Part shown: piece after piece, positions 4,953 through 53,915 of the stretch
Position numbering within the stretch: position 1 is the first letter of the stretch
Layout of the letters: every line of letters begins with the position of its first letter
Assembly (NCBI GenBank): GCA_028386065.3
Contig: JAKUCV010007746.1
Location: forward strand, 1-64,000
Direction: 5' to 3'
Length of the DNA: 64,000 nucleotides
DNA from: Turnera subulata
Lineage: Eukaryota > Streptophyta > Magnoliopsida > Malpighiales > Passifloraceae
The notes under the pieces: model-generated
What the model saw: the letters and a program-made list of their open reading frames with translations, nothing else
Databases searched by the model: none
Told to the model about the DNA's origin: nothing
Translations under genes and position numbers: made by a program

Positions 4953-5294
4953 GGGATGTTTATCCCGGTGTCTTGTTTGGTATTTTTGGGATGTTTATCC
5001 CCGTGTTGATTTTCTGTGTCGTTTGGAATAAGTAAAATGGGATAATTAATGAATTGTGACAAGGATGTCGATCCTTGGTTTTTGGATAGGGATGTCTATC
5101 CCGGTATCCTGGTTAGGGATGTCGATCCCTGTGATTAGGTTTTTAATGACAGTAATATAATTGTCGCGTGGTAAGTAGTGGTACGACTCGATGGTTTAAG
5201 ACTGTTTCGTGGTGGCCTTGACCTGGGTTCTTGTTATAAGCATGTCTATGCTTGGGATGTCTATCCCGTGATATATTTTTGGGATGTCGATCCC
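4953..5294 (+). repeat. Array of GGGAT-N4-ATCCC hairpins in the 5' LTR of A
   Basis: Eight short dyads: 4953-4966, 4988-5001, 5061-5076, 5089-5102, 5115-5130, 5238-5253, 5254-5267 and 5281-5294. Most read GGGAT GTNN ATCCC. Two have both arms changed together: AAGGAT..ATCCTT (5061-5076) and AAGCAT..ATGCTT (5238-5253). The loop is GTTT, GTCT or GTCG. The function is unknown; an RNA structure or a protein-binding dyad would both fit. Confidence 0.85.
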
Positions 5295-5857
5295 TGGGTT
5301 CTCTGGATTTGGTCTGGCACCCGAGATATGTTGATAACCAGGTCTGACCTCTAGCTTATCCGTGACGGGGCCCGGAAAAGATAAAATTGGACAATTGGAT
5401 TTTATTGAGTCTTTTCGGCTTTGGATCGAGTCTTTTGGTTTGACTATTATTTTCGACTTGAGTAATTTTTAGTGTTCATATTGATTGTCTTTCCTTCGTC
5501 GGTGAGCACTTCGGACTCACCCCTCACCTGCGGGCTTTCATCCCGTAGGATGAGTTATTTTTGGTACAGGTTTGGTGCATTCCAGACAGGCTGCAGCGTT
5601 ATTCCTTGGACAGGGCTCGGATCCATAGTTTGCATCTATGCATACAGTGTTTATGTGAGTTTCATAAGTCTTCCGCTGTGCATTGTTTTATTATTATTGG
5701 GCCATTGGGCCGGTTGAGATTTTATTGTTGTTTTTATTATGGGCTGTTGAGCCCGGATATTTGTTGTATACACTGTATGCTGAGTCATGTTGGGTTGGGT
5801 TGTCACAGTTCCGGCACGTGTTTACTGTGTACGGTAAATACGGGTCGGGGCGTTTCA

Positions 5858-5873
5858 TTTTGGTAGCGGAGCG
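5858..5873 (+). other. Primer-binding site of element A
   Basis: TTTTGGTAGCGGAGCG directly after the LTR end. The core TGGTAGCGGAGC differs at two bases from the complement of plant initiator-Met tRNA (TGGTATCAGAGC) and is identical in B and H. Confidence 0.75.
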
Positions 5874-5971
5874 GGCGTTAGGTCTTGTCGGGCAGTCTAT
5901 GTGTATTTGTTGTCTTGTTTGCGTAGTTCGCTCCAGTTGTTTATTATTTTATGTCATTTAGTTAGTGCATT

Positions 5972-6132: not shown

Positions 6133-6815
6133 TTAACGATTCGGAACGACGTTGACACGGAAGCTGTTTGGATCGTTGTTGACGTTGACTGTGACTCTGT
6201 CGCTCCACGAGAACCACATGCCGCCTCTGTCGCTCTGGCCAGGAATCTCGAACCGGTTAGCTTGAGGGATCCGGAGTGGGATGAGACCGTGATCGTCCCG
6301 TGTTGCCACTGTGTCTCCGTCAGAAGAACCATGTTCGGCTTATATTGGTTCTTCAAGTCCCTCAGAGTGCGTGAGAACTCCTGGGCACGCCTTGCTACTC
6401 CTCTGCAGTTCCACACCAGCAGTCGTGCCTTTGGCCAGGTTGGAGGTAGCCGAGTCATTCTGGGCATGCTCTGAGCCGTCATTGAGAGTTGGTAGTATGC
6501 ACCTTGCTCCACAGTCTGGCAAGTGGACTCCAAGTTGAACTCCTGTAGCCTTTCGGAGATGAAGAACATCACGGAGTTTGCCGATCCGTAGTAGGATGTC
6601 CTCAGAGTGCCATGATCCTCCAAGAAGAACACCTCTTCCATGGGAGTGACGAAAAACCGCGAAGAGTAGAGCTCGTCGACGAAGTCTAGTCGCGGCATCC
6701 TGCCGAGCTCGTTTGGTAGTTCTTCAGCGCGTTCGTTGACCATGCTGTAGGCCAGTCGATTTCTCCTGCCAAGATTGGCACCTTCGACGAAGAAGACTGA
6801 TGAGGGAGTAGGCAT
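6133..6815 (-). pseudogene. aORF2 of element A (antisense gene, frameshifted)
   Basis: Antisense to the retrotransposon. It begins MPTPSSVFFVEGANLGRRN and matches the other four copies through LTETQW. The N-terminal ~125 residues are an unfamiliar domain. They are followed by VWNCRG and LLTET, the first two motifs of LINE-type EEP endonucleases. Compared with copy B, one base is missing near 6290; the frame then leaves the family sequence and stays open to 5970 with unrelated residues. The ancestral stop aligns at 6133-6135. A TATA box lies about 106 bp upstream. Copy A keeps a sense codon where B has a stop, so the two were disabled independently. Confidence 0.8.
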
Positions 6816-6920: not shown

Positions 6921-6928
6921 CTTTTATA
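6921..6928 (-). promoter_or_regulatory. TATA box of aORF2 in element A
   Basis: TATAAAAG on the minus strand, within a stretch (AAGAG TATAAAAGAAGGAGCGG) that is identical in element B. It is placed to transcribe aORF2 against the direction of the element. Confidence 0.65.
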
Positions 6929-7636: not shown

Positions 7637-8014
7637 CTACGGAGCTACTTGCTTCTCAAGATCTTTTACAAGCTGTTGTACATTTTTCATGTGTGGGAAG
7701 AGTTCCGCACACGCCAGTTCGATTTGCGCCACCGCCGAGCTGATCTTCTTCACCGAGAAGTTCAGTTGTGTCAGCTTCTATTGCGGAGTGCTGCTCTCAG
7801 CTACCACCTTGCCCTTACGATCTTCAGCCTTCTTGCTGGCATGTTTCTTCCGTCGTTTTGGGAAAACAACCATATGCTCCTTCAGGCCGACGATTTTCGT
7901 CTTGAACCGTTTATTTGGAGGCTCTTCATCGGAGCTTGTCGGGAAAGCCGTGCCGCCGATGTAGCTGTTGTTCTCGGAGTCTGAGGTCGTACGAGAACGG
8001 AGTGGAGAGTCCAT
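7637..8014 (-). pseudogene. aORF1 of element A (antisense gene, premature stop)
   Basis: The start MDSPLRSRTTSDSENN and all of the body match the intact copy in element B. A CAG-to-TAG change (minus strand, 7778-7780) stops the frame after 78 codons. Beyond it the same frame continues with KLTQLN and the predicted coiled-coil end up to a stop at 7637. A TATA box is 35 bp upstream of the ATG. It lies upstream of aORF2 on the same strand. Confidence 0.8.
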
Positions 8015-8200: not shown

Positions 8201-10899
8201 TGTAACAGCCCGGGTAAAATTTTTGATTTTTACCGGGACTGTAGAAGTCTTTTTACCGTGATTTACTGTTGAATTAATCTTGGGTAATTAATTCAAGGCA
8301 AATCAGGAGTCGTTTTTCGAAACCGAGAGTTTTCCCGCGCTCGTGATTTTTCCGTGGATTTTTTCAGAACTAAGTTGGTATTTTTTGGGTTTCGGATTTT
8401 CTCGGAAAATCACACCGGAAAATAACTAAGGAGGTATCTGTTATTTTCTGGTCCGGATCGGACTCGCCCGTAATGCGGACGAAATTTTATTATTGATGTT
8501 CACATGATAAATAGTAAATTTCAGTTTATAAAAAGGGAGGAAACCGGTGAGGAAGCAGAGAAAGGAAGAAGAGAAGAGGAAAAAAAAAAGAGAGAGGAGA
8601 AAAAAAGAGAGAAAAAGAAAAAAAGAGAAAAAAGGAAAAAAAAGGAAAAATAAATAAATACAGAAAAAAAAGAAATAGTGAGAGGGGGAAAAAAAAGAAA
8701 TGAAAAATAAAAAAAAGAAATTCAGAAAAATAGGAAAAGAAAAAAAAGAGAAGAAGAAAATAAGAAAATAGAAGGAAAATAAAGAAATACAGAAAAAAGA
8801 AGAAAAAAAGAAAAGGGCCGGTGAACAGTGCCGTCAACCCAGCTCCTCCTCGTTACTGTGCACATGCCGCCGTTCCCCGCCGAGTATCGAAGCACCGCCG
8901 CCACCAGCAGGTTCCCCTCACCGTCGCGAGCTCACCCCCGTCGCCTCCTCCTCCTTCCGCCGCGAGTGACGCCGTGACGCGCCTTCGACCCATCGGCAGA
9001 CCCGTGGATCTGCCCTTACCGCCGCTGCCGACGACGAAGCCCAGCAGCAGCAGTCGCGAGCCACCACCTGCAGTCGTGCCTCCTGCCGTTCACCTGCACG
9101 CCGCGTCGCCAGCAGCCCGTCGTCCCGTGCCGCGCCGTCGTCTTCAACCCCCCGAGGTGAGCGACCCGTTAGTTAAGGGTGTGACCCGTTTTGCGAAATG
9201 GGACGACCCGGATCCGCATCTGTGTAACCGTGAGTTGGGCTGGTCTGTGCGCGCCTGGGCCTGTCCTTGGGTTGGGTCTGGGCCGCACTATTCATGGCCC
9301 AGTCCAATAAAAAATAATAAATAAATATATATATGTATTTATTAATTATTCTGGAAATTAATTTTGAAAAAAATATATATATTTATTTCAGAAAATTATG
9401 GACAGTATAATTATGGTATTTCCAGGAAAATATAAATATATTTACTGTGATAAATAATTAAGTTTTGTTTTGGAAACTATTATTAATTGGAAAAAAAATA
9501 TTTATACCATGAAATTAATTTCTGGAAATTTAATATATATATTATTACGTCTGGAAAATTAGGACTGTGGTATATGTATATAAATATGTATTTTGGAAAT
9601 TAAAGTTGATTATATTTTGCATAGGAAAATATTATTATTATTGTATATGTTTAGAAAAAGATAAATACTATACATATTTTCTGAAAATTATAAATAGGTT
9701 ATTATCTTTCTGGAAAATTATGATGATTATTATTTTGGAAGATTATAGTTATTTTATGAAAATATTTTGGAAAGAGTTTTAATTAAAGTATGGTACCAAA
9801 ATTATATTCGGATATACGTACGGGTAATTATTTTTGGTAAAAGATGAAAATAGAGAAGAAGAAGTGGGATGGGTTATTACGCAGTTTGGGCATCATAGCA
9901 TACCGAATATGTGCATTTATGTGTATATGTTGTTTTGATGTTTAGGTTCGGATATCGGGCAGTTTCCCGAGGAGCCGGCGTCGGACCGGTCATCATTTCC
10001 GGAGTTGAGTAATCGGCCAAGGTGAGGATGGATTTCCTTCAATATGTGCCTTATTACTCGGTTATCATGTTTTGATGATTGTGCATTGTTGATTGTTGCT
10101 TTTGCTGTGTTTTGGTTCGGGATGTTTATCCCGGTGTCTTGTTTGGTATTTTTGGGATGTTTATCCCCGTGTTGATTTTCTGTGTCGTTTGGAATAAGTA
10201 AAATGGGATAATTAATGAATTGTGACAAGGATGTCGATCCTTGGTTTTTGGATAGGGATGTCTATCCAGGTTCTTGTTATAAGCATGTCTATGCTTGGGA
10301 TGTCTATCCCGTGATATATTTTTGGGATGTCGATCCCTGGGTTCTCTGGATTTGGTCTGGCACCCGAGATATGTTGATAACCAGGTCTGACCTCTAGCTT
10401 ATCCGTGACGGGGCCCGGAAAAGATAAAATTGGACAATTGGATTTTATTGAGTCTTTTCGGCTTTGGATCGAGTCTTTTGGTTTGACTATTATTTTCGAC
10501 TTGAGTAATTTTTAGTGTTCATATTGATTGTCTTTCCTTCGTCGGTGAGCACTTCGGACTCACCCCTCACCTGCGGGCTTTCATCCCGTAGGATGAGTTA
10601 TTTTTGGTACAGGTTTGGTGCATTCCAGACAAGCTGCAGCGTTATCCCTTGGACAGGGCTCGGATCCATAGTTTGCATCTATGCATACAGTGTTTATGTG
10701 AGTTTCATAAGTCTTCCGCTGTGCATTGTTTTATTATTATTGGGCCATTAGGCCGGTTGAGATTTTATTGTTGTTTTTATTATGGGCTGTTGACCCGGAT
10801 ATTTGTTGTATACACTGTATGCTGAGTCATGTTGGGTTGGGTTGTCACAGTTCCGGCACGTGTTTACTGTGTACGATAAATACGGGTCGGGGCATTTCA
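8201..10899 (+). repeat. 3' LTR of element A
   Basis: 2699 bp, nearly identical to the 5' LTR. The main difference is a deletion of about 128 bp near 10268 that removes part of the hairpin array (corresponding to about 5100-5228 of the 5' LTR). Confidence 0.9.
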
Positions 10900-10904
10900 T
10901 CCTG

Positions 10905-11965: not shown

Positions 11966-12056
11966 CCGAAAAATCTTCAGGATCTTTTCGGAGATGAGTG
12001 AAAGGGTCCACATTTGAAATACTGATACCTGGCTATCTAAGCTCAGGCTATAAAAG
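11966..12056 (+). promoter_or_regulatory. Promoter region of aORF2 in element C
   Basis: A 26-bp dyad at 11966-11991 has arms CCGAAAA and TTTTCGG, with an inner ATC-TTCAG-GAT hairpin. It is followed by a conserved GGGTCCACATTTGAAA string and a TATAAAAG box at 12049-12056, 58 bp before the ATG. The same order occurs upstream of aORF2 in E, and dyad plus TATA also in D. Confidence 0.65.
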
Positions 12057-12113: not shown

Positions 12114-12798
12114 ATGCCTTCCCCAACAAAAGTCTTCTTTGTTGAGGGTGCCTCTTTAGGAAGGAGGAACAGGCTAGCATATAGCATGATTAGTGAACAA
12201 CAAGAGGAGTTACCGAGTGAACTCGCAAGAATTCCTCGTTTAGTTTTCGTTGATGAACTATACTCATCTAGGTTCTTTGTAACTCCTATGGAAGAAACCT
12301 TCTTCCTAGAGGACCAAGGCAATTTACGAGCTTCCTTTTATGGCTCGGCTAACTCTATTATGTTTTTCATATTTGATAGACTGCAGGAGTTTCAACTAGA
12401 GCCATCTAGTCAAATTCTGAATCAAAGCAGCTATTATCAAGTTTCTATGATGGCTCGGAGTATCCCAAGGGTATCAGGGTTGTCGCCTACATGGCCCAAG
12501 GTACGACTTTTATTATGGAATTGCAGGGGAATGGCCAGGCAGTCCCAAGATTTCGTGCGTACCTTAAGGGATCTGAAGAATCAGTACAAGCCCGACATGG
12601 TACTGATTACTGAAACCCTGTGGCAACCTGCAGAAAATCATGGAGTAATACCACTCCGTTTTCATCCAACAAATCGGTTTGAGCTACCTGGAGACAACAA
12701 CGTGGGTGGTATGTGGTTCTCCTGGAACGACATTTGTTAGGGTCAACATCAATAGCGAGGCCCAGAGCTTTAGGGCCAATGTTGTACCCAACCGTTAA
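12114..12798 (+). pseudogene. aORF2 of element C (antisense gene, frameshift near the end)
   Basis: Open for 208 codons from MPSPTKVFFVEGASLGRRN. The EEP-like part is present: LLLWNCRGMARQ and MVLITETLW, then GGMWFSWND. A small insertion near 12730 shifts the frame so that translation stops at 12740, about 20 codons early; the family sequence continues in another frame to a stop at 12796-12798. It is antisense to element C. Most differences from the A/B copies are synonymous, while the protein is strongly conserved. Confidence 0.8.
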
Positions 12799-15245: not shown

Positions 15246-15424
15246 TCTTATGAATAATATGTTTAATGAGTGAGTTTTTGGGTGAAGAAAATAGAGAAGA
15301 GAAGGGATGAAGGAGAAAGAATTGCAGGGGAAGAGCTGCGTCTTTCACGCCCCGCCTTTCATTCATTATTGTTGTTTATATATACAAAATAAGTAGGTAG
15401 AAATGACATCCATATTTTATAACA
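15246..15424 (-). repeat. 5' LTR of element C
   Basis: 179 bp. It matches the left LTR apart from a 9-bp indel and a few substitutions. It is followed by TSD TACAT. Confidence 0.85.
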
Positions 15425-26373: not shown

Positions 26374-29259
26374 TGAAACGCCCCGACCCGTATTTACCGT
26401 GCACAGTAAACACAAGCCGGAACTGTGACAACCCAACCCAAAATGAAACCAGCATACAGTGTATACAACAAGAACATGGGCTCAACAGCCCAAAGTAAAA
26501 TCAACAATAGAAACTCATCCGGCCCAATGGCCCAATAATAACAAAGTATGCACAGCGGAAGACTTAAAGACTTACTAACACTGTATGCGTAATGGATGCA
26601 ACCTATGGATCCAAGCCCGTCCAAGGGATAACGCCACAGCCTGTCTGGAATGCACCAAGCCTGTACAACAAACAACTCATCCTACGGGATGAAAGCCCGC
26701 AGGTAAGGGGTGAGTCCGAAGTGCTCACGACAATGGAAAGACGATCAATATGGACACTAAAAATTACTCAAGTCAAATAAAACAGTCAAACCCAAAGACA
26801 AAACCCAAGAGACTCAAGTAAAATCCAATTACTCAATTTTATCTTTTCGGGCCCCGTCACGGATAAGCTAGGGTTGTACCAGGTTATCAACCTGTTCCTG
26901 GTGCCAGATCAAAAAGAACCCAGGGATAGACATCCCAAAAATAACAAACCGGGATAGACATCCCAAGCATAGACATGCTTATCACACGAACCCAGATCAT
27001 GGCCACCACAAAACAGTCTCTAACCATCCGGTCGTACCTCTACTTTCCACGTGACAATTATATTACCGTCGTCAAAAACCAAACTCAAGGATCGACATCC
27101 CTAACCAAAATACCGGGATAGACATCCCCTCTAAAATACCAAGGATCGACATCCTTGTCACAATTTATTAATTAATCCATTATATTTAGTGCCAAAACGA
27201 CTCAAGGATAAACATCTAGAACTCAAAGTACGGGGATAAACATCCCAAAAACCAACATGGGATAAACATCCCGACCACAATCACAACAATGGGATAAACA
27301 TCCCAAAAACCAAACAGAACACCGGGATAAACATCCCGACAACAATCACAACAAATGCAATCATCAACAATGCAATAAACATCAAGCACAATAACTAAGT
27401 AATACAGGCACATATTGAAGGAAATCCATCCTCACCTTGGCCGATTACTCAACTCCGGAAACTATGACCGGTCCGACGCCGGCTCCTCGGGAAACTGCCC
27501 GATATCAAACCTATACAACAAAACCATATATACACATAAATGCACATAATCGGTATGCTATGATGCCAATACTACGAAATTACCCATCCCAATTCTTATC
27601 CGTTATTATTATCTTTTATCGAAAATATTTTACCGTACGTATTTCCGAATATAATTTCGGTACCATACTTTAATTAAAATTCTTTTCAAAATAATTTTCA
27701 TAAAATAACTATAATTTCCAAAATTATAATTACTATAATTTTTCCGGAAATTATGTCATATGTATATATATTTTCCAAAATATTGTTATTATTATTATTT
27801 TTTTATAAAACTATTTACCATAATATAATTACTAATTATTATTATATTAGGAAACCATATTTTCCAGTAAACATGATTATATAAATTTATTTTTCTGAAA
27901 ATAAATACGAATTATAAATATACATATTTACATTTTCCAAGGTAAAATACTTTTCTAACAATTTTAAATCAACATAATTACATATATTTCTGAAATATAC
28001 CATATATATTTTTCAAGAATAACAACATATTTATAGAATACTCCAGAAATACATCCAAGGTATATATTTTATTTTTAAATAAACATAATACTAATTTTTC
28101 AAAACAAAATATAATTATCTTTAAGTTTTCAAAATCAAGTATATATACACATATATATATTTTTCTTCCCAAAATCATAATTAAAACTAAATATATTTTC
28201 AAAATATAAATACACATTTTTTTCCAAATTATCTATCAGAAAATAGATATACATATATATATATATACATATATAAAAATAAAAAGGACAGGTCAACCCG
28301 GTTCCGGTCAAACCCAGAACCAGGCGCGACCCGCCCGTCAAAACGGGTCGGAAAACCCGGATCTTGCTCACCTCGACGACGGTGGCGGCGCGTGCTCGAG
28401 GAGGAAGCAAGCGCGGGGAAGGCGAGGCGAAGGCGACTCCTCAGGCGGCGGAAGGAAGCGCTGGCGTCGTCGACGGGCTAAGCAGGAGCGGCTAAGGCAC
28501 GACCTGCGGGTTGCACGACGGGTCAATGGCTGTTGGCGGCGCGTCGACGGACGAAACCGGCAGGAGGCGACGGGGTCTTGATGGCGACGGCGAGACGAGG
28601 CCAACGGTGGCGGTGGTGCAGCGAACGGCGGCCTGGAGCTCGTCGTGGTGAACAGTGCAGAGGCGGGGAGGAAGATGGTGTACTATGCGGGTTTTTCCTT
28701 TTTTCCCGATTTTTCTTCTTTTTTTCTTCTTTTTTTTTTCATTTTTTTTCTATTTTTTTTCATTTTCTGATTGGCTCTTTTTATTGTTTTCTATATTTCT
28801 CTTTTTTTTTCTTTTCTTTCTTTTTTTTCTCTTTTCTCTTTTTTTTCTCTCTTTTTCTTTTTCTCTCTTTTTTTTCTTTTCTCTCTTTTTTTTTTCTTTT
28901 TTTTCTCCTCTCCTCTCTTCCTCTCCTTCTTCTGCTTCCTTCCTTAAATAAACAGTGGAAATACTGTTAATCTTGTGATTAACAATAATGCAGGCGGGTC
29001 CGATCCGGACCAGAAAATAACTGATACCCCCTTAGTTATTTTCCGGTGTGATTTTCCGAGAAATTCCGAAACCCGAAAAATACCAACTTAGTTCCGAAAA
29101 ATCCACGGAAAAATCACGAGCGCGGGAAAACCCTCGGTTTTAAAAAAAAACTCCCGATTTACCTTGAATTAATTACCCAAGATTAATTCAACAGTAAATC
29201 ACGGTAAAAAGACTTCTACAGTCCCGGTAAAAATCAAAAATTTTACCCGGGCTGTTACA
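26374..29259 (-). repeat. 3' LTR of element B
   Basis: 2886 bp; starts TGAAACGCCCC and ends GCTGTTACA on the plus strand. It contains the CT-rich tract, GC-rich island, AT-rich block and hairpin array seen in element A, all reversed. Confidence 0.9.
26930..27330 (-). repeat. GGGAT-type hairpin array in the 3' LTR of B
   Basis: About ten dyads such as GGGATAGACATCCC, GGGATAAACATCCC, AAGCATAGACATGCTT and AAGGATCGACATCCTT. One (around 27205) has lost its pairing (AAGGATAAACATCTAG). The other LTR of B has the same set at about 32175-32600. Confidence 0.85.
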
Positions 29260-29290
29260 GTCTACCCACTTTAAAAAGAATTTCGTCCCC
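29260..29290 (-). other. Polypurine-tract region of element B
   Basis: On the minus strand GGGGACGAAATTC and TTTTTAAAGTGGGTAGAC abut the 3' LTR, as in A. Confidence 0.7.
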
Positions 29291-29445: not shown

Positions 29446-29823
29446 ATGGACTCTCCACTAAGATCTCGAACGACCTCAGACTCCGAGAACAACAGCTACA
29501 TCGGCGGCACAGCTTTCCCGACAAGCTCCGATGAAGAGCCTCCAAAGAAACGGTTCAAGACCAGCATCATCGGCCTGAAGGAACACATGGTCGTTTCCCC
29601 AAAACGACGGAAGAAGCGTGCCAACAAGAAGGCTGAAGACAAGAAAGGCAAGGCGGTAGCTAAGAGCAGCACTCCGCAACAGAAGCTGACGCAACTGAAC
29701 GTCTCGCTGAGGAAGATCAGCTCGGCGGTGGCGCAAATCGAACTGGCGTGCGCGGAGCTGTTCCCACACATGGAGAACGTGCAAAAACTTGTAAAAGATC
29801 TAGAGAAGCAAGTAATTCCATAG
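29446..29823 (+). CDS. aORF1: small basic protein with NLS and C-terminal coiled coil, antisense in element B
   Basis: 125 codons, uninterrupted. Residues 1-35 are Ser/Thr/Asp/Glu-rich (MDSPLRSRTTSDSEN...). Around 34-70 lie two basic clusters, KKRFK and PKRRKKRANKK, which look like a bipartite nuclear localisation signal. Residues about 78-122 form an amphipathic helix with heptad-like hydrophobics (LTQLNVSLRKI, VQKLVKDLEKQV), likely a coiled coil. I recognise no family. Element A carries the same gene with one stop codon. It is antisense to the retrotransposon and lies upstream of aORF2, each with its own TATA box. From composition I infer a nuclear protein that self-associates; the function is unknown. 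It is absent from the copia-type elements. Confidence 0.7.
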   Translation: MDSPLRSRTTSDSENNSYIGGTAFPTSSDEEPPKKRFKTSIIGLKEHMVVSPKRRKKRANKKAEDKKGKAVAKSSTPQQKLTQLNVSLRKISSAVAQIELACAELFPHMENVQKLVKDLEKQVIP

Positions 29824-30520: not shown

Positions 30521-30528
30521 TATAAAAG
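30521..30528 (+). promoter_or_regulatory. TATA box of aORF2 in element B
   Basis: TATAAAAG about 109 bp before the ATG, in a block identical to element A. Confidence 0.65.
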
Positions 30529-30636: not shown

Positions 30637-31320
30637 ATGCCTGCTCCATCCTCAGTCCTCTTCGTCGAAGGTGCCAATCTTGGCAGAAGGAACCGTCTGG
30701 CCTACAGCATGGTCAACGAACGTGCTGAAGAGCTACCGAACGAGCTCGGAAGGATGCCTCGTCTAGTCTTCGTCGACGAACTCTACTCCTCGAGATTCTT
30801 CATCACTCCCATGGAAGAGGTGTTCTTCCTAGAGGACCGCGGCACTCTGAGGACCTCATACTACGGATCGGCAAACTCCATGATGTTCTTCATCTCCGAA
30901 AGGCTACAGGAGTTCAACCTGGAGTCCACTTGCCAAACTGTGGAGCAAGGTGCCTACTATCAACTCTCGATGACGGCCTAGAGCATGCCCAGAATGACTC
31001 GGCTACCTCCAACTTGGCCAAAGGTACGGCTACTGGTGTGGCACTGTAGAGGAGTTGCAAGGCGTGCCCAGGAGTTCTCACGTACTCTGAGGGACCTGAA
31101 GAACCAATATAAGCCGAACATGGTTCTTCTGACGGAGACCCAGTGGCAACCCCGAGACGATCACGGTCTCATCCCACTCCGATTCCCTCAAGCTAACCAG
31201 TTCGAGATTCCTGGCCAGCACGACAGAGGCGGCATGTGGTTCTCTTGGAGCGACAGAGTCACGGTCAACATCAACAGCGACCCAAATAGTTTCCGTGTCA
31301 ACGTCGTTCCAAATCGTTAA
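30637..31320 (+). pseudogene. aORF2 of element B (antisense gene, one in-frame stop)
   Basis: Frame of 228 codons interrupted by a single TAG (30979-30981), where copy A has CAG. The N-terminal part (MPAPSSVLFVEGANLGRRN ... VFVDELYSSRFF ... LEDRGTLR ... YYGSANS) is the unfamiliar domain. The C-terminal part has LVWHCRG instead of the WNCRG seen in A, C, D and E, so the EEP-like Asn is replaced by His. It continues MVLLTETQW, RFEIP-like and RGGMWFSW, ending VNVVPNR. The stop and the His suggest it was already inactive when copied or decayed since. Confidence 0.82.
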
Positions 31321-31612: not shown

Positions 31613-31628
31613 CGCTCCGCTACCAAAA
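31613..31628 (-). other. Primer-binding site of element B
   Basis: TTTTGGTAGCGGAGCG on the minus strand next to the 5' LTR; identical to A. Confidence 0.75.
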
Positions 31629-33510
31629 TGAAACGCCCCGACCTGTATTTACCGTACACAGTAAACACAAGCCGGAACTGTGACAACCCAACCCAAAATG
31701 AAACCAGCATACAGTGTATACGACGAGAACACGGGCTCAACAACCCAAAGTAAAATCAACAATAGAAACTCATCCGGCCCAATGGCCCAATAATAACAAA
31801 AGTATGCACAGCGGAAGACTTAAAGACTCACTAACACTGTATGCGTAATAGATGCAACCTATGGATCCAAGCCCGTCCAAGGGATAACGCCGCAGCCTGT
31901 CTGGTATGCACCAAGCCTGTACAACAAACAACTCATCCTACGGGATGAAAGCCCGTAGGTGAGGGGTGAGTCCGAAGTGCTCACGACAATAGAAAGACGA
32001 TCAATATGGACACTAAAAATTACTCAAGTCAAATAAAACAGTCAAACCCAAAGACAAAACCCAAGGGACTCAAGTAAAATCCAATTACTCAATTTTATCT
32101 TTCCGGGCCCCGTCACGGATAAGCTAGGGTCGTACCAGGTTATCAACCTGTTCCTGGTGCCAGATCAAAAAGAACCCAGGGATAGACATCCCAAAAATAA
32201 CAAACCGGGATAGACATCCCAAGCATAGACATGCTTATCACACGAACCCAGATCATGGCCACCACAAAACAGTCTCTAACCATCCGGTCTTACCTCTACT
32301 TACCACGTGACAATTATATTACCGTCGTCAAAAACAAAACTCACGGATCGACATCCCTAACCAAAATACCGGGATAGACATCCCCTCCAAAATACCAAGG
32401 ATCGACATCCTTGTCACAATTTATTAATTAATCCATTATATTTAGTGCCAAAACGACTCAAGGATAAACATCTAGAACTCAAAGTACGGGGATAAACATC
32501 CCAAAAACCAACATGGGATAAACATCCCGACCACAATCACAACAATGGGATAAACATCCCAAAAACCAAACAGAACACCGGGATAAACATCCCGACAACA
32601 ATCACAACAAATGCAATCATCAACAATGCAATAAACATCAAGCACAATAACCGAGTAATACAGGCACATATTGAAGGAAATCCATCCTCACCTTAGCCGA
32701 TTACTCAACTCCGGAAACTATGACCGGTCCGACGCCGGCTCCTCGGGAAACTGCCCGATATCAAACCTATACAACAAAACCATATATACACATAAATGCA
32801 CATAATCGGTATACTATGATGCCAATACTACGAAATTACCCATCCCAATTCTTATCCGTTATTATTATCTTTTATCGAAAATATTTTACCGTACGTATTT
32901 CCGAATATAATTTCGGTACCATACTTTAATTAAAATTCTTTTCAAAATAATTTTCATAAAATAACTATAATTTCCAAAATTATAATTACTATAATTTTTC
33001 TGGAAATTATGTCATATGTATATATATTTTCCAAAATATTAATATTATTATTATTATTTTTATAAAACTATTTACCATTATATAATTACTAATTATTATT
33101 ATATTAGGAAACCATATTTTCCAGTAAACATGGTTATATAAATTTATTTTTCTGAAAATAAATACCAATTATAAATATACATATTTACATTTTCCAAGGT
33201 AAAATACATTTCTAACAATTTTAAATCAACATAATTACATATATTTCAGAAATATACCATATATATTTTTCAAGAATAGCAACATATTTATAGAATACTC
33301 CAGAAATACATCCAAGGTATATATTTTATTTTTAAATAAACATAATACTAATTTTTCAAAACAAAATATAATTATCTTTAAGTTTTCAAAATCAAGTATA
33401 TATACACATATATATATTTTTCTTCCCAAAATCATAATTAAAACTAACTATATTTTCAAAATATAAATACACATTTTTTTCCAAATTATCTATCAGAAAA
33501 TAGATATACA

Positions 33511-33552
<42 letters not shown>

Positions 33553-34531
33553 AATAAAAAGGACAGGTCAACCCGGTTCCGGTCAAACCCAGAACCAGGC
33601 GCGACCCGCCCGTCAAAATGGGTCGGAAAACCCGGATCTTGCTCACCTCGACGACGGCGGCGGCGCGAGCTCGAGGAGGAAGCAAGCGCGGGGAAGGCGA
33701 GGCGAAGGCGACTCCTCAGGCGGCGGAAGGAAGCGCTGGCGTCGTCGACGGGCTGAGCAGGAGCGGCTAAGGCACGACCCGCGGGTTGCACGACGGGTCA
33801 ATGGCTGTTGGCGGCGCGTCGATGGACGAAACCGGCAGGAGGCGATGGGGTCTTGATGGCGACGGCGAGACGAGGCCAACGGTGGCGGTGGTGCAGCGAA
33901 CGGCGGCCTGGAGCTCGTCGTGGTGAACAGTGCAGAGGCGGGGAGGAAGATGGTGTACTGTGCGGGTTTTTCCTTTTTCCCGATTTTTCTTCTTTTTTTT
34001 CTTTCTATTTTTCTTTCATTTTCTTTCTATTTTTTTCATTTTCTGATTGGCTCTTTTTATTGTTTTCTGTATTTCTCTTTTTTTTCTTTTCTTTCTTTTT
34101 TTTCTCTTTTCTCTTTTTTTTCTCTCTTTTTCTTTTTCTCTCTTTGTTTCTTTTCTCTCTTTTTTTTTCTTTTTTTTCTCCTCTCCTCTCTTCCTCTCCT
34201 TCTTCTGCTTCCTTCCTTAAATAAACCGTGGAAATACTGTTAATCTTGTGATTAACAATAATGCAGGCGGGTCCGATCCGGACCAGAAAATAACTGATAC
34301 CCCCTTAGTTATTTTCCGGTGTGATTTTCCGGGAAATTCCGAAACCCGAAAAATACCAACTTAGTTCCGAAAAATCCACGGAAAAATCACGAGCGCGAGA
34401 AACCCTCTGTTTCGAAAAACGACTCCCGATTTACCTTGAATTAATTACCCAAGATTAATTCAACAGTAAATCACGGTAAAAAGACTTCTACAGTCCCGGT
34501 AAAAATAAAAAATTTTACCCGGGCTGTTACA
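31629..34531 (-). repeat. 5' LTR of element B
   Basis: 2903 bp, closely similar to 26374-29259. A (TA)n/(CA) tract at 33502-33551 is longer than in the other LTR (about 28246-28276), a post-insertion difference. Confidence 0.9.
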
Positions 34532-37181: not shown

Positions 37182-37406
37182 TGTTATAAAACATGTATAA
37201 ATACTAGTATGTATGTCATTGTTATACATACAAAATATAATATCCCCTCTATTATATATATGTTGTATAACGAGTTAGAAAAATGAATGAAAAAACGAAA
37301 ACCGTCTTTCTGCTCCCAATTTTTCCGACTTCTCCTCCATCTTCTTCATCATTTTCTTTACCAAAGATTAATCATCATAAACAATAAAAACACTCCATTT
37401 ATAACA
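37182..37406 (+). repeat. 5' LTR of element D
   Basis: Starts TGTTATAAAACATG, ends CATTTATAACA; about 4 percent different from the 3' LTR by eye. Confidence 0.9.
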
Positions 37407-37420
37407 CGTTATCAGCACGA
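37407..37420 (+). other. Primer-binding site of element D
   Basis: CGTTATCAGCACGA directly after the LTR, identical to element C. Confidence 0.75.
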
Positions 37421-39764: not shown

Positions 39765-40448
39765 CTATCTGTTGGATTCAACATTAACCCTGAAACTCTG
39801 AGCTTCACCATTAATGTTGCCCCTAACACTGTCGTTCCAGGAGAACCACATACCACCCCTGTTGTTTTCTCCAGGTATCTCAAACCGATTCGTTGGAGGA
39901 AAACGAAGTGGAATCACACCATGATTCTCTCCTGCTTGCCACAAAGTCTCAGTAATCAGTACCATATTAGGCTTGTACTGATTCTTCAGATCCCTTAAGG
40001 TACGCACAAAGTCTTGAGACCTACTTGCTATACCCCTGCAATTCCACAATAAAAGTCGTACCTTAGGCCATGTAGGTGGTAACCCAGTCACCCTTGGGAC
40101 TCTCCGAGCCATCATGGAAACCTGATAATAACTTTTTTGATTTAAAATTTGACATGAAGGCTCTAGCTGAAATTCCTGCATCCTAGCAGATATGAAAAGC
40201 ATTATAGAGTTAGCTGAGCCATAAAAATTTGTCCTGAGATTGCCTTGGTCCTCTAGGAAGAAAGTTTCATCCATTGGAGTCACAAAGAACCTAGACGAGT
40301 ATAGCTCATCTACAAAAACCAAAAGTGGGATTCTTGCTAGCTCATTACGCAGTTCCTCTTGTTGTTCATTTACCATGCTATAGGCCAATCTATTTCTTCT
40401 GCCTAGTGAGGCACCCTCAACAAAGAAAACAGTAGCTGGAGAAGGCAT
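39765..40448 (-). CDS. aORF2: intact antisense gene with LINE-EEP-like C-terminus (element D)
   Basis: 227 codons, no stops, antisense to element D. Residues 1-125 form a domain I do not recognise (VFFVEGASLGRRNRLAYSM, LVFVDELYSSRFFVTPM, FYGSANS). Residues about 131-227 look like the first third of a LINE-type EEP endonuclease: LLLWNCRG (N136), LRDLKNQYKPNMVLITET (E167), then RGGMWFSWND, where LINEs have a GG(L)xxxW segment. The Asn-to-Glu spacing fits, but later EEP motifs (GDFN-like and SDH-like) are absent, so catalysis is unlikely. A TATA box and a conserved dyad lie upstream (40541-40600). Four more copies are in A, B, C and E, all antisense to their hosts. The function is unknown. Confidence 0.75.
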   Translation of the reverse strand: MPSPATVFFVEGASLGRRNRLAYSMVNEQQEELRNELARIPLLVFVDELYSSRFFVTPMDETFFLEDQGNLRTNFYGSANSIMLFISARMQEFQLEPSCQILNQKSYYQVSMMARRVPRVTGLPPTWPKVRLLLWNCRGIASRSQDFVRTLRDLKNQYKPNMVLITETLWQAGENHGVIPLRFPPTNRFEIPGENNRGGMWFSWNDSVRGNINGEAQSFRVNVESNR

Positions 40449-40540: not shown

Positions 40541-40600
40541 ATCTTATAGCCTGAGCATAGAAAGCCAGGTGTCTCCGAAAAGATCCAGAAGATTTTTCGG
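40541..40600 (-). promoter_or_regulatory. Promoter region of aORF2 in element D
   Basis: On the minus strand a 26-bp dyad (40575-40600; arms CCGAAAA and TTTTCGG) is followed by a CTATAAGAT box (40541-40549) about 95 bp before the ATG. Same order as in C and E. Confidence 0.6.
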
Positions 40601-40860
40601 TGGATTATATTATTATTCAGAAAATTCCAAAGCTCTACAATCCTCGAGGATTTACTTTTGGAAATGTCTACCACTACATTAATTATTGCTCAATAATTCT
40701 GATTTTTTTAACATGAGTGGCAGATATAAGCTTAAAATTGGTACACAACAGCTTAAAGCTGGTACCCATCAAAAGCTAGTAAAAATAGCAGCCTGAAGCT
40801 GGCACATATATACCAGCCTGAAGCTGGTACCTACTTAAAGTTGTTTTATTGGATTTATTT

Positions 40861-42690
40861 GGCATGACCGGTTGGGCCATCCCGGGTCAATATTGATGCA
40901 CGAAATTTATTTGGTCATTCATTGAAAAACCAGAAGTTTTACAATCAATAAATTTCCATGTGTTTTGTTTGCTGTGAAATTAACAATACGGCCATCCTAT
41001 GATGAGATTGGCCTAGACCAGCAAATTTGGGAATAATTCCGGGATATGAACGTGGACTGATAGATCCGCTGTGTTGACCATCTAGGTAATTTTTACGATG
41101 CATCGACTAGATGGTCTATTGTGTGACGCAAGTTGGCATTGTGCGCACTTGTTTTAATGATTAAGCCACTTGCGGGTACATATCCCTACTTATGTTACTA
41201 GACTATATGTCTAGATTATGCTGGTATATTTCTTCAATGGATAATGTATATCATTGGAAATAAACTCAAACAGATCTGGGCCATATTGACAATTGATTAC
41301 AGGACCATTGATGAAATATCATTGTTTGATAATTGGTATTTTATATGCAGCAGCACTTGAGTGCATCAAGCCAACATGATAAGATCTCCCCATTTAATTG
41401 ATTAATGGTTTCACATACTTAGTATCTCTCATTTTCGGACCATCGGTTATATAGTATAAAAATGCTCCACCACAGCATTGTTTTGTTGGTCCTTAAAGAA
41501 TATTGGGAATATATGTTGTGTATGTTGGGCATGTTAATTTGATGTTAGCGTTTACCCAACATAAGGGGGAGGAAAGAAGCAGCTGGATCAAGAGATTATT
41601 GAAATGATTTATCAATATCTAGTTTTTGATCCTCGAATAAATTAGTATGAACTTGAAGTTCAAAAGATGATTCATTTGCAGGAAAATTAATATGCAATTG
41701 CCAGACACATTTAAATTAAGTGTGACCATAGACCAGCTGCAAATGCTCCTGTTTAAGATTGATGTTCCTGAAGAACAATATAAGTATGCAAATGAATCTA
41801 TAGATTATACTCGGTTCCAAAAGAAAAGAAATTCTCGATAGAGAAAAAAGAGCAAAAGTGATAAGATGGCCCCAGTGAGAAAGTAAGACCTCCAGTAGAG
41901 GTTTGAATTAAAAGTCCTCCAGAAGAGGTTGATTCTCTAACACAATTGATAAATTTCCAGAAGTAACTCAGGTACTTAAAATAAATGAGTATGATGAGAT
42001 CTCAATTACAGTGTCAGGGATAAGATGGAACCGACGAGAAATAACCGTCGACGGAATACAATTTCAATTTATGGCGCTAAATATTAAAAATGAGGATCAT
42101 GAACCTACTGATGAAAGTAGGCGTTGTATGATTGGCCAAAATAAAGAGACATAATTAAAGACTGTGTTAGACTCGCTTATGAAGCGAGATATTTTTCGAA
42201 CCTGTAGTCCGTACACCAGAGGGTGTAAAATTGATTAGTCGTAGAAACGGGTATATGTGCGGAAAATATAAATGAGATATAAAGCACGGTTGCACAAGGT
42301 TTTACCTGAATGATCTGAATTTAATTATGAGGAGATTTACTCCCCTGTGGTGGATGCAATTATGTTAATAAGTCTGGCATCATATGAAAAGAATTTGAAA
42401 TGCATCTAGTGAATGCTATTACAACCTATTTATTAATATGGATCCATAAGTCATGATATATACATGAAGATCTCTGAAGGATCCAAGTTGCCTGAAGCAA
42501 CTAATTCCCAGGAAATTACAAAAATTGAACCGAATTTAAATCATTCTGTGTATGGATAAAGTTATATGTTTAGTGATTGGAACTCCAGAAGAAGTCTCCA
42601 AATACCATGCTATTAGACTGGTCATGGAGTACTATGTCTAAATAGAATATGTATTGCTTGTACCATAAAGCCTGAAGCTTTTGATTTAAG
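40861..42690 (+). pseudogene. Decayed copia pol of element D
   Basis: Fragments in copia order: a GMTGWAIPG/HDRLGHPG-like pre-integrase start (40861), a KESWEYMLCMLGM-like integrase stretch, a DPRTNEYELEVQKMIHLQ-like spacer segment (about 41620), WNRREITVDGIQF with NEDHEP (42029-42110), a VVRTPEGVKLI-like stretch (about 42205) and YSPVVDAIMLISLA (about 42340). Stops and shifts occur throughout. Several of the hairpins described for this family lie inside (41764-41776, 41889-41901, 41916-41928, 42487-42501, 42667-42681). Confidence 0.7.
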
Positions 42691-43174
42691 CCTATCGGCA
42701 TTATATGTATTTGCTCTTATCTTCGGGGAATAACAAATGTGTAATCATGTAAACCCGAAAGAGAGTAAAGTTGTTTTTGCAGATATAGATCTTTTTCTTA
42801 GTCTACATAAAGCACAGACGGACATCAGCTGCAACATTGCACATAATATTGCAATATCATCGGGACTACAAAAGCAAGATGGGAAGATAGACGCTCAAAT
42901 GACAAAATTATGAAGATTATCCTGCCAACTCTGTCCAATTGAAGTTATGATGTAACAAAAATGATCAGACAAAACACATGTCACCAGAAGCTGACATGGA
43001 CGATAGGCATGCAACAACATCAAGCAATCAATGGAGGCCAAAATTAGGGGGAGTAGAATACGCACTGCACTCTTTTTTCCTTCACCAAGTTTTTATCCCA
43101 CTGGGTTTTTCTTGGTAATGTTTTTAATGAGGCAGTACTCCCAAAGTGTATTCTACCCAGCAACACAATGACAT

Positions 43175-43185
43175 CAAAGGGAGAG
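43175..43185 (+). other. Polypurine tract of element D
   Basis: CAAAGGGAGAG directly before the 3' LTR. Confidence 0.75.
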
Positions 43186-43410
43186 TGTTATAAAACATAT
43201 ATAAATACTAATATGTATGTCATTGTTATACATAGAGAATACAGTATCCCCTCTATTATATATATGTTGTATAACGAGTTAGAAAAATGAATGAAAAAAC
43301 GAAAATCGTCTTTCTGCTCCCAATTTCTCCGACTTCTCCTCTATCTTCTTCATCATTTTCTTTACCAAAGATTAATCATCATAAACAATAAAAACACTCC
43401 ATTTATAACA
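43186..43410 (+). repeat. 3' LTR of element D
   Basis: 225 bp; TGTTATAAAACAT to TTTATAACA, then TSD AACAT (43411-43415). Confidence 0.9.
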
Positions 43411-46257: not shown

Positions 46258-46455
46258 TGTTATAATTAATGGGTGTTTACAGAGTGAATTAGTAGAGGAA
46301 GAATTGAAGAAGAAGAATTTGAAGAAGAAAAAGGGGCAGTGCAGAGGAGAAGCAGAGCCAAGCAAAAACCACATCATTTTTCATTCAATAACAATATATA
46401 GAGGATACAATAAGGAGGTAGGTAAAACAATGATATACACACGTTTTTTATAACA
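46258..46455 (-). repeat. 3' LTR of element E
   Basis: 198 bp; TGTTATAATTAATG to TTTTTATAACA on the plus strand. Confidence 0.85.
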
Positions 46456-48830
46456 CTCCCCCTTGTATGTCATTGTGTGTTGGGTAGAATATGCTTCGGG
46501 AAAAACTGCCTCATTAAAAACCTTACCAAGAAAAACCCAGTGGGATAAAAACTTGGTGAAGGGAAAAAGAGTGCAGTGCGTATTCTACTCCCCCTCATTT
46601 TGGCCTCCATTGATTGCTCGATACTCCCCCTCATTTTGGTCTCCATTGATTCCTTGATTTCGTTGCATGCCAATCGTCCTTGTCAGCTTCTGGTGACGCG
46701 TATTTTGTCTGATCACTTTTGGTACATCATTATTTCAATTGGACAGAGTTGGCAGCATTATCTTCATGATTTGATATTGAAGCACCTTCTTTGCCACCTT
46801 GCTTTTGTGGTCCGGATGATATCACAATATCACGTGTAAAGTTGTAGTTGATGTCCGTCTGTGCTTTGTGTGGACTAAATAAGGGATCTACATCTGCAAA
46901 AATCAACTTTACTCTCTTTCGGGTTTACAGGATTACATATTTGTTATTCCCCAAAGATAAGAGTAAATTCATATCATCCCAATAGGCTTTAAGTCAAAAG
47001 CTTCAGGCTTTATGTTACAAGAAATATAAATAGCGTTTAGACATGGTACTCCAGGATCAGTCTAATAGCACGGTATTTGGAAGCTTCTTCAGGAGTTCCA
47101 ATCACAAAACATATAGATATCAATATAAATTTATCCATACTCAAAATGATTTAAACTCAGTTCAATTTTTGTAATTTCTCGGGAATTAGTTGCTTCAGGC
47201 AGCTTGGATCCTTCAGGGATCTTCATGTATATTTCACGACTTATGGATCCATAGTAGGCTGTAAAAGCATTCATTAGAAGCATTTCTAATTCTTTTCATG
47301 TAATGCCAGACTTATCAAAATAATCGCATCCACCACAGGGGAGTATATCTCCTCACAATTAATACCAGGTCATTTGGGTAAATCTTGTGCTACAATACCG
47401 TGCTTTATATTTCAATATCTTTTCCGCACAATACCTATTTTTCGACCGATCAATTTTACACCCATCTAGTGTACGGACTACTGGTCCGAAAATTTTCTCG
47501 CTTCACAAGCGAGTCCAACACAGCCTTTAATCATATCTCTTTATATTTTGGCCAATCATTATGTGCCTACATTCACCAGTAGATGTAGGTTCATGATCCT
47601 CATTTTATTTAGCGCTATATAAAGTAAATATTCCGTCGACGGTTATTTCACGTCGGTTCCATCTCATTTCTGACACTGTAATTGAGATCTCATCATGCTC
47701 ATTTATTTCAGGTACCTGAGTTACTTCTTAACTTTATAAATTTATGTCAGAAAACCAACCTCTTTTGGAGGACCTCTACTGGAGGCCTTATTTTCTTACT
47801 GGGGCCATCTTATTTCTTTGCTCCTTTTTCTCTATCGAGAATTTCTTTTGGAACCGAGTATAATCTATAGATTCATTTGCATACTTATATTGTTCTTCAG
47901 GAAAAACAATTTAAGCAGGAGAATTTGCAGCTGGTATATGGTCACACTTAATTTAAATGTGTCTGGCAATTGCATATCAATTTTCCTGCAAATTAATCAT
48001 CTTCTTCTGAACTTCAGGTTCATACTAATGTATATGAGGATCAACAATCATGCATTTCAATAATATCTTGATCCAGCTGCTTATTTCCTCCCCCTTATGT
48101 TGGGTAAACTCTATCATCATATTAATAAGTAACCTACCCAACATACACAACATATATTCCCAGTCTTTTTTGAAGACCAACATAACTATGCTGTAGTGGA
48201 GCATTATACATTGTACAATAAAAAAATGGTCTGAAGATGGGAGTTACTAGGTTCGTGACCATGAACCAATTAAATGGGGGAAATCTTATAACATCATGTT
48301 GGCTTAATACACTCAAGTGTTGCTGCATATAAAATACCATTGTCTCAAACAGTAATATTTCATCAATGGTCCTGTAATCAATTGTCAATGTTCCCCTAGA
48401 TCTGTTTAGGTTTATTTCCAATGATATACATTATCCATTGAAGAAATATACCAGCATTATCTAGACATATAGTCTAGTAACATAAGTAGGAATATGTACC
48501 CGCAAGTGGCCAAATTATTAAATTAGTGCGCACAATGCCAACTTGCGTCACACATTGGACCATCTAGTCGATGCATCGTGAAAATTACCTAGATGGTCAA
48601 CACAGCGGATTTATTAATCAGCGCTCATGTCCCTGTATTATTCCTAAACTTGCTGGTGATTCTAGGCCAATCTCATCTTAGGAAGGTCGTACAATTAATT
48701 TCGCAGCAAACAAACACATGGGGATTCATTGATTGTAAAACTTCTGGTTTTTTCAATGAATGATCCAATAAATTTCGTGCATCATTATTGACCCGGGATG
48801 GCCCAACCGGTCATGCCAAACAATAAGTCC
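46456..48830 (-). pseudogene. Decayed copia pol of element E
   Basis: On the minus strand, from its 5' side: HDRLGHPGSIMM (near 48800, GAG pre-integrase), NAPLQHSYVGLQKRLGIYV (near 48170, integrase region), EISITVSEMRWNRREITVDG (near 47680) and NEDHEP, then the RT side and the conserved 3' block. No frame stays open for long. Confidence 0.72.
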
Positions 48831-49261: not shown

Positions 49262-49350
49262 CCAAAAAATCTTCTGGATCTTTTCGGTGACAGAAAAAGG
49301 GTCCACATTTGAAAAATCTGACACCTGGTGTCTAATCTCAGACTATAAGA
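49262..49350 (+). promoter_or_regulatory. Promoter region of aORF2 in element E
   Basis: A 26-bp dyad (49262-49287) with one arm base changed (CCAAAA for CCGAAAA), a GGGTCCACATTTGAAA string, and a TATAAGA box at 49344-49350, 62 bp before the ATG. Confidence 0.6.
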
Positions 49351-49411: not shown

Positions 49412-50094
49412 ATGCCTTCCCCAGCTACCGTTTTCTTTGTTGAGGGTGCCTCTCTAGGAAGAAGAAATAGGTTAGCTTATAGCATGGTGAATGAGCAGCA
49501 AGAGGAATTACCGAATGATCTGGCGAGTATTCCTCGTTTAGTGTTTGTTGATGAACTATATTCATCTAGGTTCTTTGTAACTCCTATGGAAGAAACATTC
49601 TTCCTAGAGGACCAAAGCAATCTAAGGGCTTCCTTTTATGGCTCGGCTAACTCTATTATATTTTTCATATCTAATAGACTGGAGGAATTTCAGCTAGAGC
49701 CTTCATGTCAAATTTTAAATCAAAGCAGTTATTATCAGGTTTCCATGATGGCTCGGAGCGTCCCAAGGGTGACTGGGTTACCACCTACATGGCCTAAGGT
49801 ACGACTTCTACTATAGAATTGCAGGGGATAGCAAGAAGGTCCCAAGATTTTGTGCGTACCTTAAGGGGTCTAAAGAATCAGTACAAGCCCAACATGGTAC
49901 TGATTACTGAGACTATGTGGCAAGCAGGAGAAAATCATGGTGTAATCCCACTCCGTTTTCCTGCAACGAATCGGTTTGAGATACCTGGAGAAAATAATAT
50001 GGGTGGCATGTGGTTCTCCTGGAACGACAGCGTTAGGGTCAATGTTAATGGTGAGGCTCAGAGTTTCAGGGTTAATGTCGAGCCCAACAGATAG
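49412..50094 (+). pseudogene. aORF2 of element E (antisense gene, one in-frame stop)
   Basis: The family frame from MPSPATVFFVEGAS to VNVEPNR, interrupted by one TAG (49814-49816) at the Trp codon of the WNCRG motif. Everything after the stop is still in frame (NCRGIARRSQ ... MVLITETMW ... GGMWFSWNDSVRVN). It is antisense to element E. Except for this single change it is very close to the intact copy in D. Confidence 0.82.
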
Positions 50095-52354: not shown

Positions 52355-52560
52355 TGTGGTATAATTAATGGGTGTTTAATGGGTGTTTACAGTGAATTAG
52401 TAAAGAAAGAATTGAAGAAGAAGAATTTGAAAAAGAAAAAGGGGCAGTGCAGAGGAGAAGCAGAGCCAAGCAAAAACCACATGATTTTTCATTCAATAAC
52501 AATATATAGAGGATACAAGGAGGTAGGTAAAACAATGATATGCACACGTTTTTTATAACA
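52355..52560 (-). repeat. 5' LTR of element E
   Basis: About 206 bp. It matches 46258-46455 with a small internal duplication of ATGGGTGTTTA. The inner boundary is uncertain by a few bases. Confidence 0.8.
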
Positions 52561-53884: not shown

Positions 53885-53915
53885 AAAAAAAGGCGCCTTT
53901 TTGTATATTATTGGT

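Follow-up and report, generated by a model that had tools for sequence, protein, structure and literature searches.

Additional open reading frames in antisense orientation are known from several plant LTR retrotransposons, including gene23 of Grande, ORF4/TRP28 of Retand and the ORFs of RIRE2 and PvRetro13 (PMC7264820, PMC11963269). The existence of such genes is established, whereas their origin and function are described as unknown (PMC7264820). As presented in these accounts, the Grande/Retand type is an antisense ORF in the interior of the element that is conserved within its family and has no known function. In all these respects it resembles aORF2, the gene described here. In a survey covering 121 plant assemblies, the unusual domains, 15 in number, were confined to elements of the gypsy type and did not occur in copia elements (PMC9289625). 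The large eORF survey presented in PMC6317226 applied a cut-off of 250 codons and would therefore miss aORF2, which has 227 codons. A full-text search of open-licence literature returned, within the texts it covered, no report of an antisense gene common to two plant LTR lineages.

We found a single gene family, aORF2, in antisense orientation in five LTR elements (A to E) of the window, the 64-kb stretch of Turnera subulata DNA analyzed here. The earlier note had placed copies at five positions, regarded them as encoding the same protein in two element groups, and described all of them as antisense to their elements. All five copies are present (Table 1), and LTR pairs, TSDs, PBS and PPT give the antisense orientation in five of five cases. 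Between A/B and C/D/E, aORF2 is 67.2–69.4% identical at the nucleotide level (682–684 aligned bases) and 70–72% at the amino acid level (225 codons). No codon has been gained or lost over the 228 codons of the window copies, and all lesions are of a single base. The LTR lengths are likewise as claimed, about 2.8 kb in A/B and about 0.2 kb in C/D/E. Duplications of 5 bp were found by script for A, B, D and E, whereas the TSD of C (TACAT), which the script had missed, was identified by eye; LTR divergence is 2.2–4.0%. In blastn comparisons between the groups, homology is bounded by the ATG and the stop codon of aORF2, and the other notable match is a 51-bp block upstream of the gene, shared by B and E only (E 9e-4). 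When the flanks of aORF2 were force-aligned between the groups over 145–243 positions, 44–53% of the positions were identical, which is the level of unrelated sequence.

Table 1. Features of elements A to E in the window. Strand refers to the window; for TATA boxes the last column gives the position relative to the ATG of aORF2.
Feature	Position	Strand	Remark
5' LTR of D	37182..37406	+	element D runs +; TSD AACAT
3' LTR of D	43186..43410	+	paired LTR
PBS of D	37407..37420	+	CGTTATCAGCACGA, identical in C
PPT of D	43174..43185	+	
aORF2 of D	39765..40448	-	intact 227-aa ORF
TATA box of aORF2 in D	40542..40548	-	-100
Copia relic WHDRLGHPG in D	40857..40907	+	E 0.22 alone; on the 3' side of aORF2 along the element
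Copia RT relic of D	42014..42478	+	element sense, stop-broken; E 0.006
5' LTR of A	3065..5857	+	nested in C; TSD TCCTG
3' LTR of A	8201..10899	+	paired LTR
PBS of A	5858..5877	+	TTTTGGTAGCGGAGCGGGCG
aORF2 of A	6133..6815	-	one-base deletion
TATA box of aORF2 in A	6922..6928	-	-113
aORF1 of A	7637..8014	-	one in-frame stop
3' LTR of B	26374..29260	-	element B runs -; TSD GTTGA
5' LTR of B	31628..34531	-	paired LTR
aORF2 of B	30637..31320	+	single in-frame stop
TATA box of aORF2 in B	30521..30527	+	-116
aORF1 of B	29446..29823	+	second antisense ORF, basic, 125 aa; A/B type only
3' LTR of C	974..1161	-	element C runs -; interrupted by A
5' LTR of C	15246..15424	-	paired LTR
aORF2 of C	12114..12798	+	one extra base close to end
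TATA box of aORF2 in C	12049..12055	+	-65
Copia RT relic of C	2058..2267	-	E 2.7e-5
3' LTR of E	46258..46455	-	element E runs -; TSD TTTGA
5' LTR of E	52376..52560	-	paired LTR
aORF2 of E	49412..50094	+	one stop and one-base deletion
TATA box of aORF2 in E	49344..49350	+	-68
Probable copia RT relic of E	47212..47405	-	E 0.06, weak alone; place agrees with C and D

The window holds further features of this kind. Element A has inserted within C and splits it (3060-10904), with the target TCCTG duplicated on either side. A second antisense ORF, aORF1, with the basic clusters KRFKT and KRRKK, is present in the A-type elements of the window and in three fetched stretches (L031, L032 and L035); it was sought in C, D and E and not found there. 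It is less constrained than aORF2, A and B differing at 13, 12 and 24 sites by codon position. Another LTR pair lies at 53909-60378 (1.6 kb, 98.6% alike, 3.2-kb interior), and its interior contains no aORF2 and, among the ORFs listed, no long pol-like one. A copia element on the minus strand at 22296-25886, identified by eye, has long but separate pol ORFs and served as our copia yardstick. Between elements D and E, at 44702-45562, there is a DUF4283 ORF (E 4.8e-12), which we take to be LINE ORF1-like.

The protein sequence of aORF2 is held by strong purifying selection in both element families. Within the groups, dN/dS is 0.07 for A-B, 0.11 for D-E, 0.09 for C-D and 0.11 for C-E. Pooled values that include copies fetched from the genome (see below) are 0.047 for the A-type (six fetched copies and B) and 0.104 for the D-type (20 fetched copies; 0.122 with D of the window included). 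Third codon positions are far more divergent than first and second positions in all four within-group pairs of the window (18–35% versus 4.2–8.9%; Fisher p 8e-16 to 1e-8). Decay after insertion, estimated from LTR divergence, is expected to amount to 2.4–3.5% at first and second positions and would cover about 35–67% of the changes observed there. Since the observed changes exceed this decay, we infer that aORF2 was selected while its carriers moved and not just in a distant ancestor. Between the groups, 56–65% of the third positions differ in the window copies, compared to 10–13% of the second positions (59.5% and 9.6% with the fetched copies), and synonymous sites are saturated. The earlier note had suggested a transfer between element lineages; at such saturation, direct transfer between the two groups is not supported. 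The third positions of A-type copies have an identity of 0.79, versus 0.86–0.91 in most flanks, and those of D and E differ by 24%, equal to or above their flanks (6–24%). The A-type excess counts against the reading preferred below; older gene variants imported by recombination could produce such a pattern.

We searched the window's own assembly (518.7 Mb, 7,125 contigs) for further copies. A first look gave 8,029 candidates with the D query and 7,477 with the A query, two sets that may overlap, and the best 150 of each were scored. Stop-free matches, counted by eye in these subsets biased towards intact copies, made up 126 of the best 150 for D and 142 of the best 150 for A. From the D list, we fetched 20 copies spread down the best 150 as 10-kb stretches, two of which are cut at contig ends. 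Seven A-type stretches were fetched and six used for orientation, the seventh (L029, C4508:50800-59799) being mostly gap. An open frame of 1,965 codons in that stretch was considered as a full-length parent gene and rejected, as it is a run of Ns marking an assembly gap. All copies were chosen by their similarity to aORF2, so that their numbers describe copies matched in this way and not the genome-wide frequency of carriers or of intact genes.

PBS and/or PPT show aORF2 to be antisense in 18 of the 20 D-type copies and reversed in none; the other two (L010, L021) have neither motif. In the A-type, the PBS is on the side consistent with antisense orientation in six of six stretches and absent from the other strand, which was searched as well. 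Altogether, the gene is antisense in 24 of 26 fetched copies, with no signal in two. LTR pairs surround aORF2 in 12 D-type copies, nine of them with a TSD found by script. They are also present in five of the six A-type stretches, partly clipped by the stretch ends; three of these stretches contain long assembly gaps. Random orientation and matches mostly outside LTR elements had been named in advance as evidence against the proposal. No fetched copy is reversed, and element signals accompany the gene in 18 of 20 D-type and six of six A-type copies.

The carriers are without intact gag-pol in all copies examined and have the profile of non-autonomous elements, with LTRs, PBS, PPT and TSD. In the 12 D-type elements bounded by LTRs, the longest frame in element sense has 84–291 codons, and the longest frame of 11 of them includes aORF2. 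No gag or pol Pfam match was obtained with nine sense-frame ORFs (six D-type and three A-type copies), and the interiors of A and B contain no pol-like frame. LTR identity in the 12 D-type elements is 82–100%, with at least 97% in ten. The two with identical LTRs (L014 and L026) are without intact gag-pol as well. Being mostly recent insertions without a working gag-pol, these elements were presumably mobilized in trans.

Traces of pol nevertheless exist in one of the two groups. The copia pol relics that had been reported for C, D and E are recognizable in C, while the matches in D and E are weak alone (Table 1). Fetched D-type copies contain copia RT relics in element sense (L010, E 2.7e-7; L018, 2.5e-6; L027, 6e-6), and at E 0.01 copia relics are present in six of 20, all in element sense. 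The motif WHDRLGHPG, presumably the start of the copia integrase region, is found in C (E 0.45) and E (E 0.064) at the position corresponding to that in D. Along the three elements it lies about 0.4–0.6 kb 3' of aORF2 and is followed by the RT relics; the single matches are weak, and their places agree. Reversed-query controls gave two matches, at E 0.5 and 1. With pol relics on its 3' side, aORF2 occupies the usual place of gag/protease and not the interval between pol and the 3' LTR. The Grande and Retand ORFs, as described in PMC7264820 and PMC11963269, are located in that interval, whereas aORF2 lies on the 5' side of the pol relics in C/D/E, and in A/B there is no pol. By the same descriptions, most Grande/Retand carriers have gag-pol, some Retand elements being non-autonomous, in contrast to the carriers of aORF2.

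An exact 14-nt PBS, CGTTATCAGCACGA, is common to C and D and, with two variable bases allowed, was found in 12 of the 20 fetched D-type copies. It would fit a half tRNA-Ile primer; no tRNA gene was found within the 64-kb window. Elements of the Bianca lineage of copia are described as primed by a half tRNA-Ile with an edited anticodon that pairs with C (Neumann et al., PMC6317226), and the PBS of the C/D/E-type would fit this lineage. The A/B-type has a different PBS, TTTTGGTAGCGGAGCGGGCG, 2.8-kb LTRs and no trace of pol. These elements may resemble gypsy elements. Their assignment to Ty3/gypsy by the earlier note is not supported for elements that have no pol and whose PBS and ends only differ from those of C/D/E. 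A/B and C/D/E are two clearly different element types, and the differences in PBS, PPT, terminal motif and LTR length, together with pol relics in one group only, speak for different lineages. The type of primer is characteristic of a lineage in most cases, according to the overview in PMC6317226, and within the C/D/E-type, PBS and PPT remain alike while the LTRs change.

This change of LTRs is extensive. Among 12 C/D/E-type elements, only one of 66 pairs has 3' LTRs of which 30% or more can be aligned. The aligned interior parts of the same elements are mostly 82–92% alike (medians), and the 5' leader after the PBS aligns poorly, too. If LTRs are unalignable even within the C/D/E-type, their dissimilarity cannot prove separate superfamilies, and unrelated LTRs, on which the earlier note had relied, are a weak argument for separate lineages; PBS, PPT and termini argue better.

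Several patterns indicate that parts have been exchanged among C/D/E-type elements, although some of this evidence is modest. Sites shared by two of the three window elements number 72 (CD), 66 (CE) and 71 (DE) upstream of aORF2, 24, 45 and 66 within the ORF, 5, 14 and 182 in the 500 nt downstream, and 32, 87 and 37 further on. The switch from DE to CE between the last two stretches is significant (p 1e-31) and results partly from a stretch in which C is simply unrelated. The upstream regions of L022 and L023 are E-like (92–93% to E, 54–63% to D) and that of L018 is C/E-like, while the ORFs of all three are only slightly nearer to D (95%) than to E (92%). ORF distances show no correspondence to the distances in three pol-relic stretches upstream and one flank downstream (Mantel r -0.32 to 0.08); they track the upstream flank next to the gene (r 0.41, p 0.01; nearest 260 nt, r 0.32, p 0.06), and the pol stretches track one another (r 0.52, p 0.0025; r 0.19, p 0.04). 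Because ORF distances are kept small by selection, the low correlations are weak evidence alone. Template switching in shared particles would be a natural route for such swaps. A selective sweep centered on aORF2 in the D-type, hinted at by a gradient in the medians, was dismissed: mean distances are 0.087 in the upstream 260 nt, 0.081–0.087 in adjacent flanks, 0.097–0.127 in pol-relic stretches and 0.075 at synonymous sites. As these means form no gradient, we claim recombination and not a sweep.

We then asked what kind of protein aORF2 encodes. Its N-terminal 127 residues match nothing in any of the collections searched. No homologues of the protein were found in a set of 5.8 billion proteins or in viral or prokaryote contigs, no relative was found in PDB by sequence (best E above 1), and NCBIfam gave nothing above cut-off, copy C having a weak EEP-family match (E 0.011). 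The aORF2 consensus has no hit in Pfam, and Pfam scans revealed no match to Transposase_28, a domain that Retand is described as having (PMC7264820, PMC11963269). A fold prediction was unusable (pLDDT 38) and its Foldseek matches meaningless.

The C-terminal 100 residues, in turn, contain the motifs WNCRG...ETxW and GGMWFSW in the same order as the start of the EEP domain in a LINE of this genome. This LINE was found beside an A-type copy (L036, L034) and matches PF03372 at 68-225 (E 1e-7) and RVT_1 (E 4e-22). In L034 (C1702:41565-50064) and L036, it consists of frameshifted EEP and RT regions plus an RRM_1/DUF4283 ORF and lies next to or in the A-type element. Of 5,000 shuffles against a first LINE piece, 1 (D), 4 (B) and 18 (C) scored as high as the C-terminal part or higher, compared to 218 (D), 769 (B) and 125 (C) of 1,000 for the N-terminal controls. 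A second LINE piece alone was not significant (D 383, B 220 and C 511 of 5,000 shuffles), and the N-terminal control of B did better against it (15 of 1,000). Of four pieces scanned, only copy C has a match to PF03372, over profile positions 2-75 of 225 and, with E 0.0038, below cut-off. The C-terminus of aORF2 may derive from part of a LINE endonuclease, the likeness being weak. A complete EEP catalytic domain is not present. The GDLN and SDH motifs of the EEP domain are catalytic, and aORF2 lacks both because of a stop codon common to the copies, whereas the LINE of L036 continues to the end of the domain. As the protein ends before most of the EEP domain, nuclease activity is unlikely, and the prediction, as far as binding is concerned a guess, is that it attaches to nucleic acid or chromatin and does not cut.

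The gene probably has a TATA promoter of its own. A TATA box (TATAA[AG][AG]) is located 65–116 nt upstream of the ATG in all five window copies and 68–117 nt upstream in all 27 fetched copies, i.e. in 32 of 32, while the chance level is 3.1% of random 60-nt stretches on one strand. For Grande, too, an own promoter has been reported (PMC7264820, PMC11963269, as summarized there). In the A-type copies A, B, L030 and L035, an inverted repeat, CGCTCC/GGAGCG, encloses the TATA box. An upstream block common to A/B and C/D/E is suggestive only: it is significant for B-E (0 of 500 shuffles) and not in the other five of six pairs, and with a motif taken from E it is weak in most A-type copies.

Based on these observations, we consider it reasonably probable that aORF2 is a selected antisense gene of two LTR families without intact gag-pol in the examined copies, likely with its own TATA promoter, and that its product is likely an accessory protein that would aid its carriers. 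In this protein, about the first third of a LINE-type EEP domain would follow a new N-terminal domain of 127 residues. The protein may act in the nucleus on behalf of the carriers, such as by countering silencing or assisting integration; Grande gene23 is described as a nuclear protein (PMC7264820, PMC11963269). Intact elements would supply gag-pol in trans, and aORF2, likely together with its promoter, could change backbones through template switching between two RNAs packaged in one particle. As the protein is selected in elements without gag-pol, carrying aORF2 would be expected to raise the success of the carrier, with anti-silencing, nuclear entry and help in integration as candidate functions. 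A counterpoint is that a helper acting in trans is not obviously retained by selection in non-autonomous elements. CpG is not depleted in the LTRs and spacers of the A-type, neither in the copies of the window (1.2–1.4) nor in five of six fetched ones, compared to 0.49 in the long-ORF copia element of the window, mixed values of 0.39–1.22 in the D-type, and 0.30–0.54 for aORF2 itself in C, D and E. The A-type level would fit carriers that stay unmethylated, which is a hint at most given the mixed D-type values. A further-reaching possibility, which we put forward tentatively and regard as somewhat doubtful, is that the unit of inheritance is the antisense gene itself. Born from part of a LINE endonuclease, it would travel with its promoter through changing LTR shells, copia-type and other, whose LTRs and leaders are swapped to suit the supplier of gag-pol.

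Other explanations have to be weighed against an accessory gene of the elements. Chance can be dismissed: in the sense strand of the five copies, no frame stays open for longer than 39–113 codons, and the codon-position bias fits the antisense frame, which refutes the notion of a fortuitous open frame or a by-product of a sense-strand coding region and makes its probability practically nil. The same codon-position pattern, the preserved start and stop, and the lack of codon gain or loss across the families make it very unlikely that the antisense unit acts as RNA, its transcript pairing with the element RNA and tuning silencing, even though regulatory antisense transcripts are discussed for such elements (PMC7264820).

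Two alternatives that accept a selected protein appear improbable to us, to a similar degree. Both element families could have captured a plant cellular gene family separately, in which case the host gene was the target of selection and the copies in elements are passengers. A TATA box and a single ORF do resemble an ordinary gene, and synonymous saturation between the groups is what old paralogues have. However, selection is seen among the copies within each element family (dN/dS 0.05–0.12), and no copy clearly outside elements was among the fetched best matches, a sample in which a host gene could be missed. The remaining alternative does without any transfer: A/B and C/D/E would descend from one old gene-bearing element, of which everything else, including LTRs and PBS, has changed beyond recognition. 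The saturation implies a split old enough to erase non-coding homology, and LTR turnover is as fast as the single alignable pair in 66 implies. Against common descent stand the differences in PBS, PPT, terminal motif, LTR length and pol content, as well as the stability of PBS and PPT in the C/D/E-type while LTRs change, primer type being mostly lineage-characteristic in the account of PMC6317226.

With an accessory gene of the elements as the preferred reading, aORF2 provides a handle on the origin and function of antisense genes. First-look candidates number in the thousands, many copies are intact, the gene is under selection in gag-pol-deficient copies of two unlike element types, and its likeness to a LINE endonuclease, though weak, can be traced. 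Compared to ORF2 of plant LINEs, aORF2 has a weak similarity to the EEP start, lacks RT and most of the EEP domain, and has the extra N-terminal 127 residues. VANDAL elements are DNA transposons. Their VANC anti-silencing proteins may serve as a functional analogy only, that of an element protein favoring its own family (PMC10398659, PMC5735166, in the aspects presented there), and we claim no sequence link. The ORF3 pool of bdelloid rotifer LTR elements resembles aORF2 in that accessory ORFs, some of them nuclease-related, occur across retroelement types, which suggests exchange (PMC5408684). It differs in its animal host and its DEDDy/GDSL and other types, and no antisense, single-intact-gene, non-autonomous case was seen in the account of PMC5408684. 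Bianca (Ty1/copia), as characterized in PMC6317226, is matched by the C/D/E-type in copia pol relics and would be matched in the putative half tRNA-Ile fit of the CGTTATCAGCACGA PBS; unlike Bianca, the C/D/E-type is without intact gag-pol in the examined copies and carries an antisense gene. And unlike the Grande and Retand ORFs, as portrayed in PMC7264820 and PMC11963269, aORF2 is common to two unlike element types.
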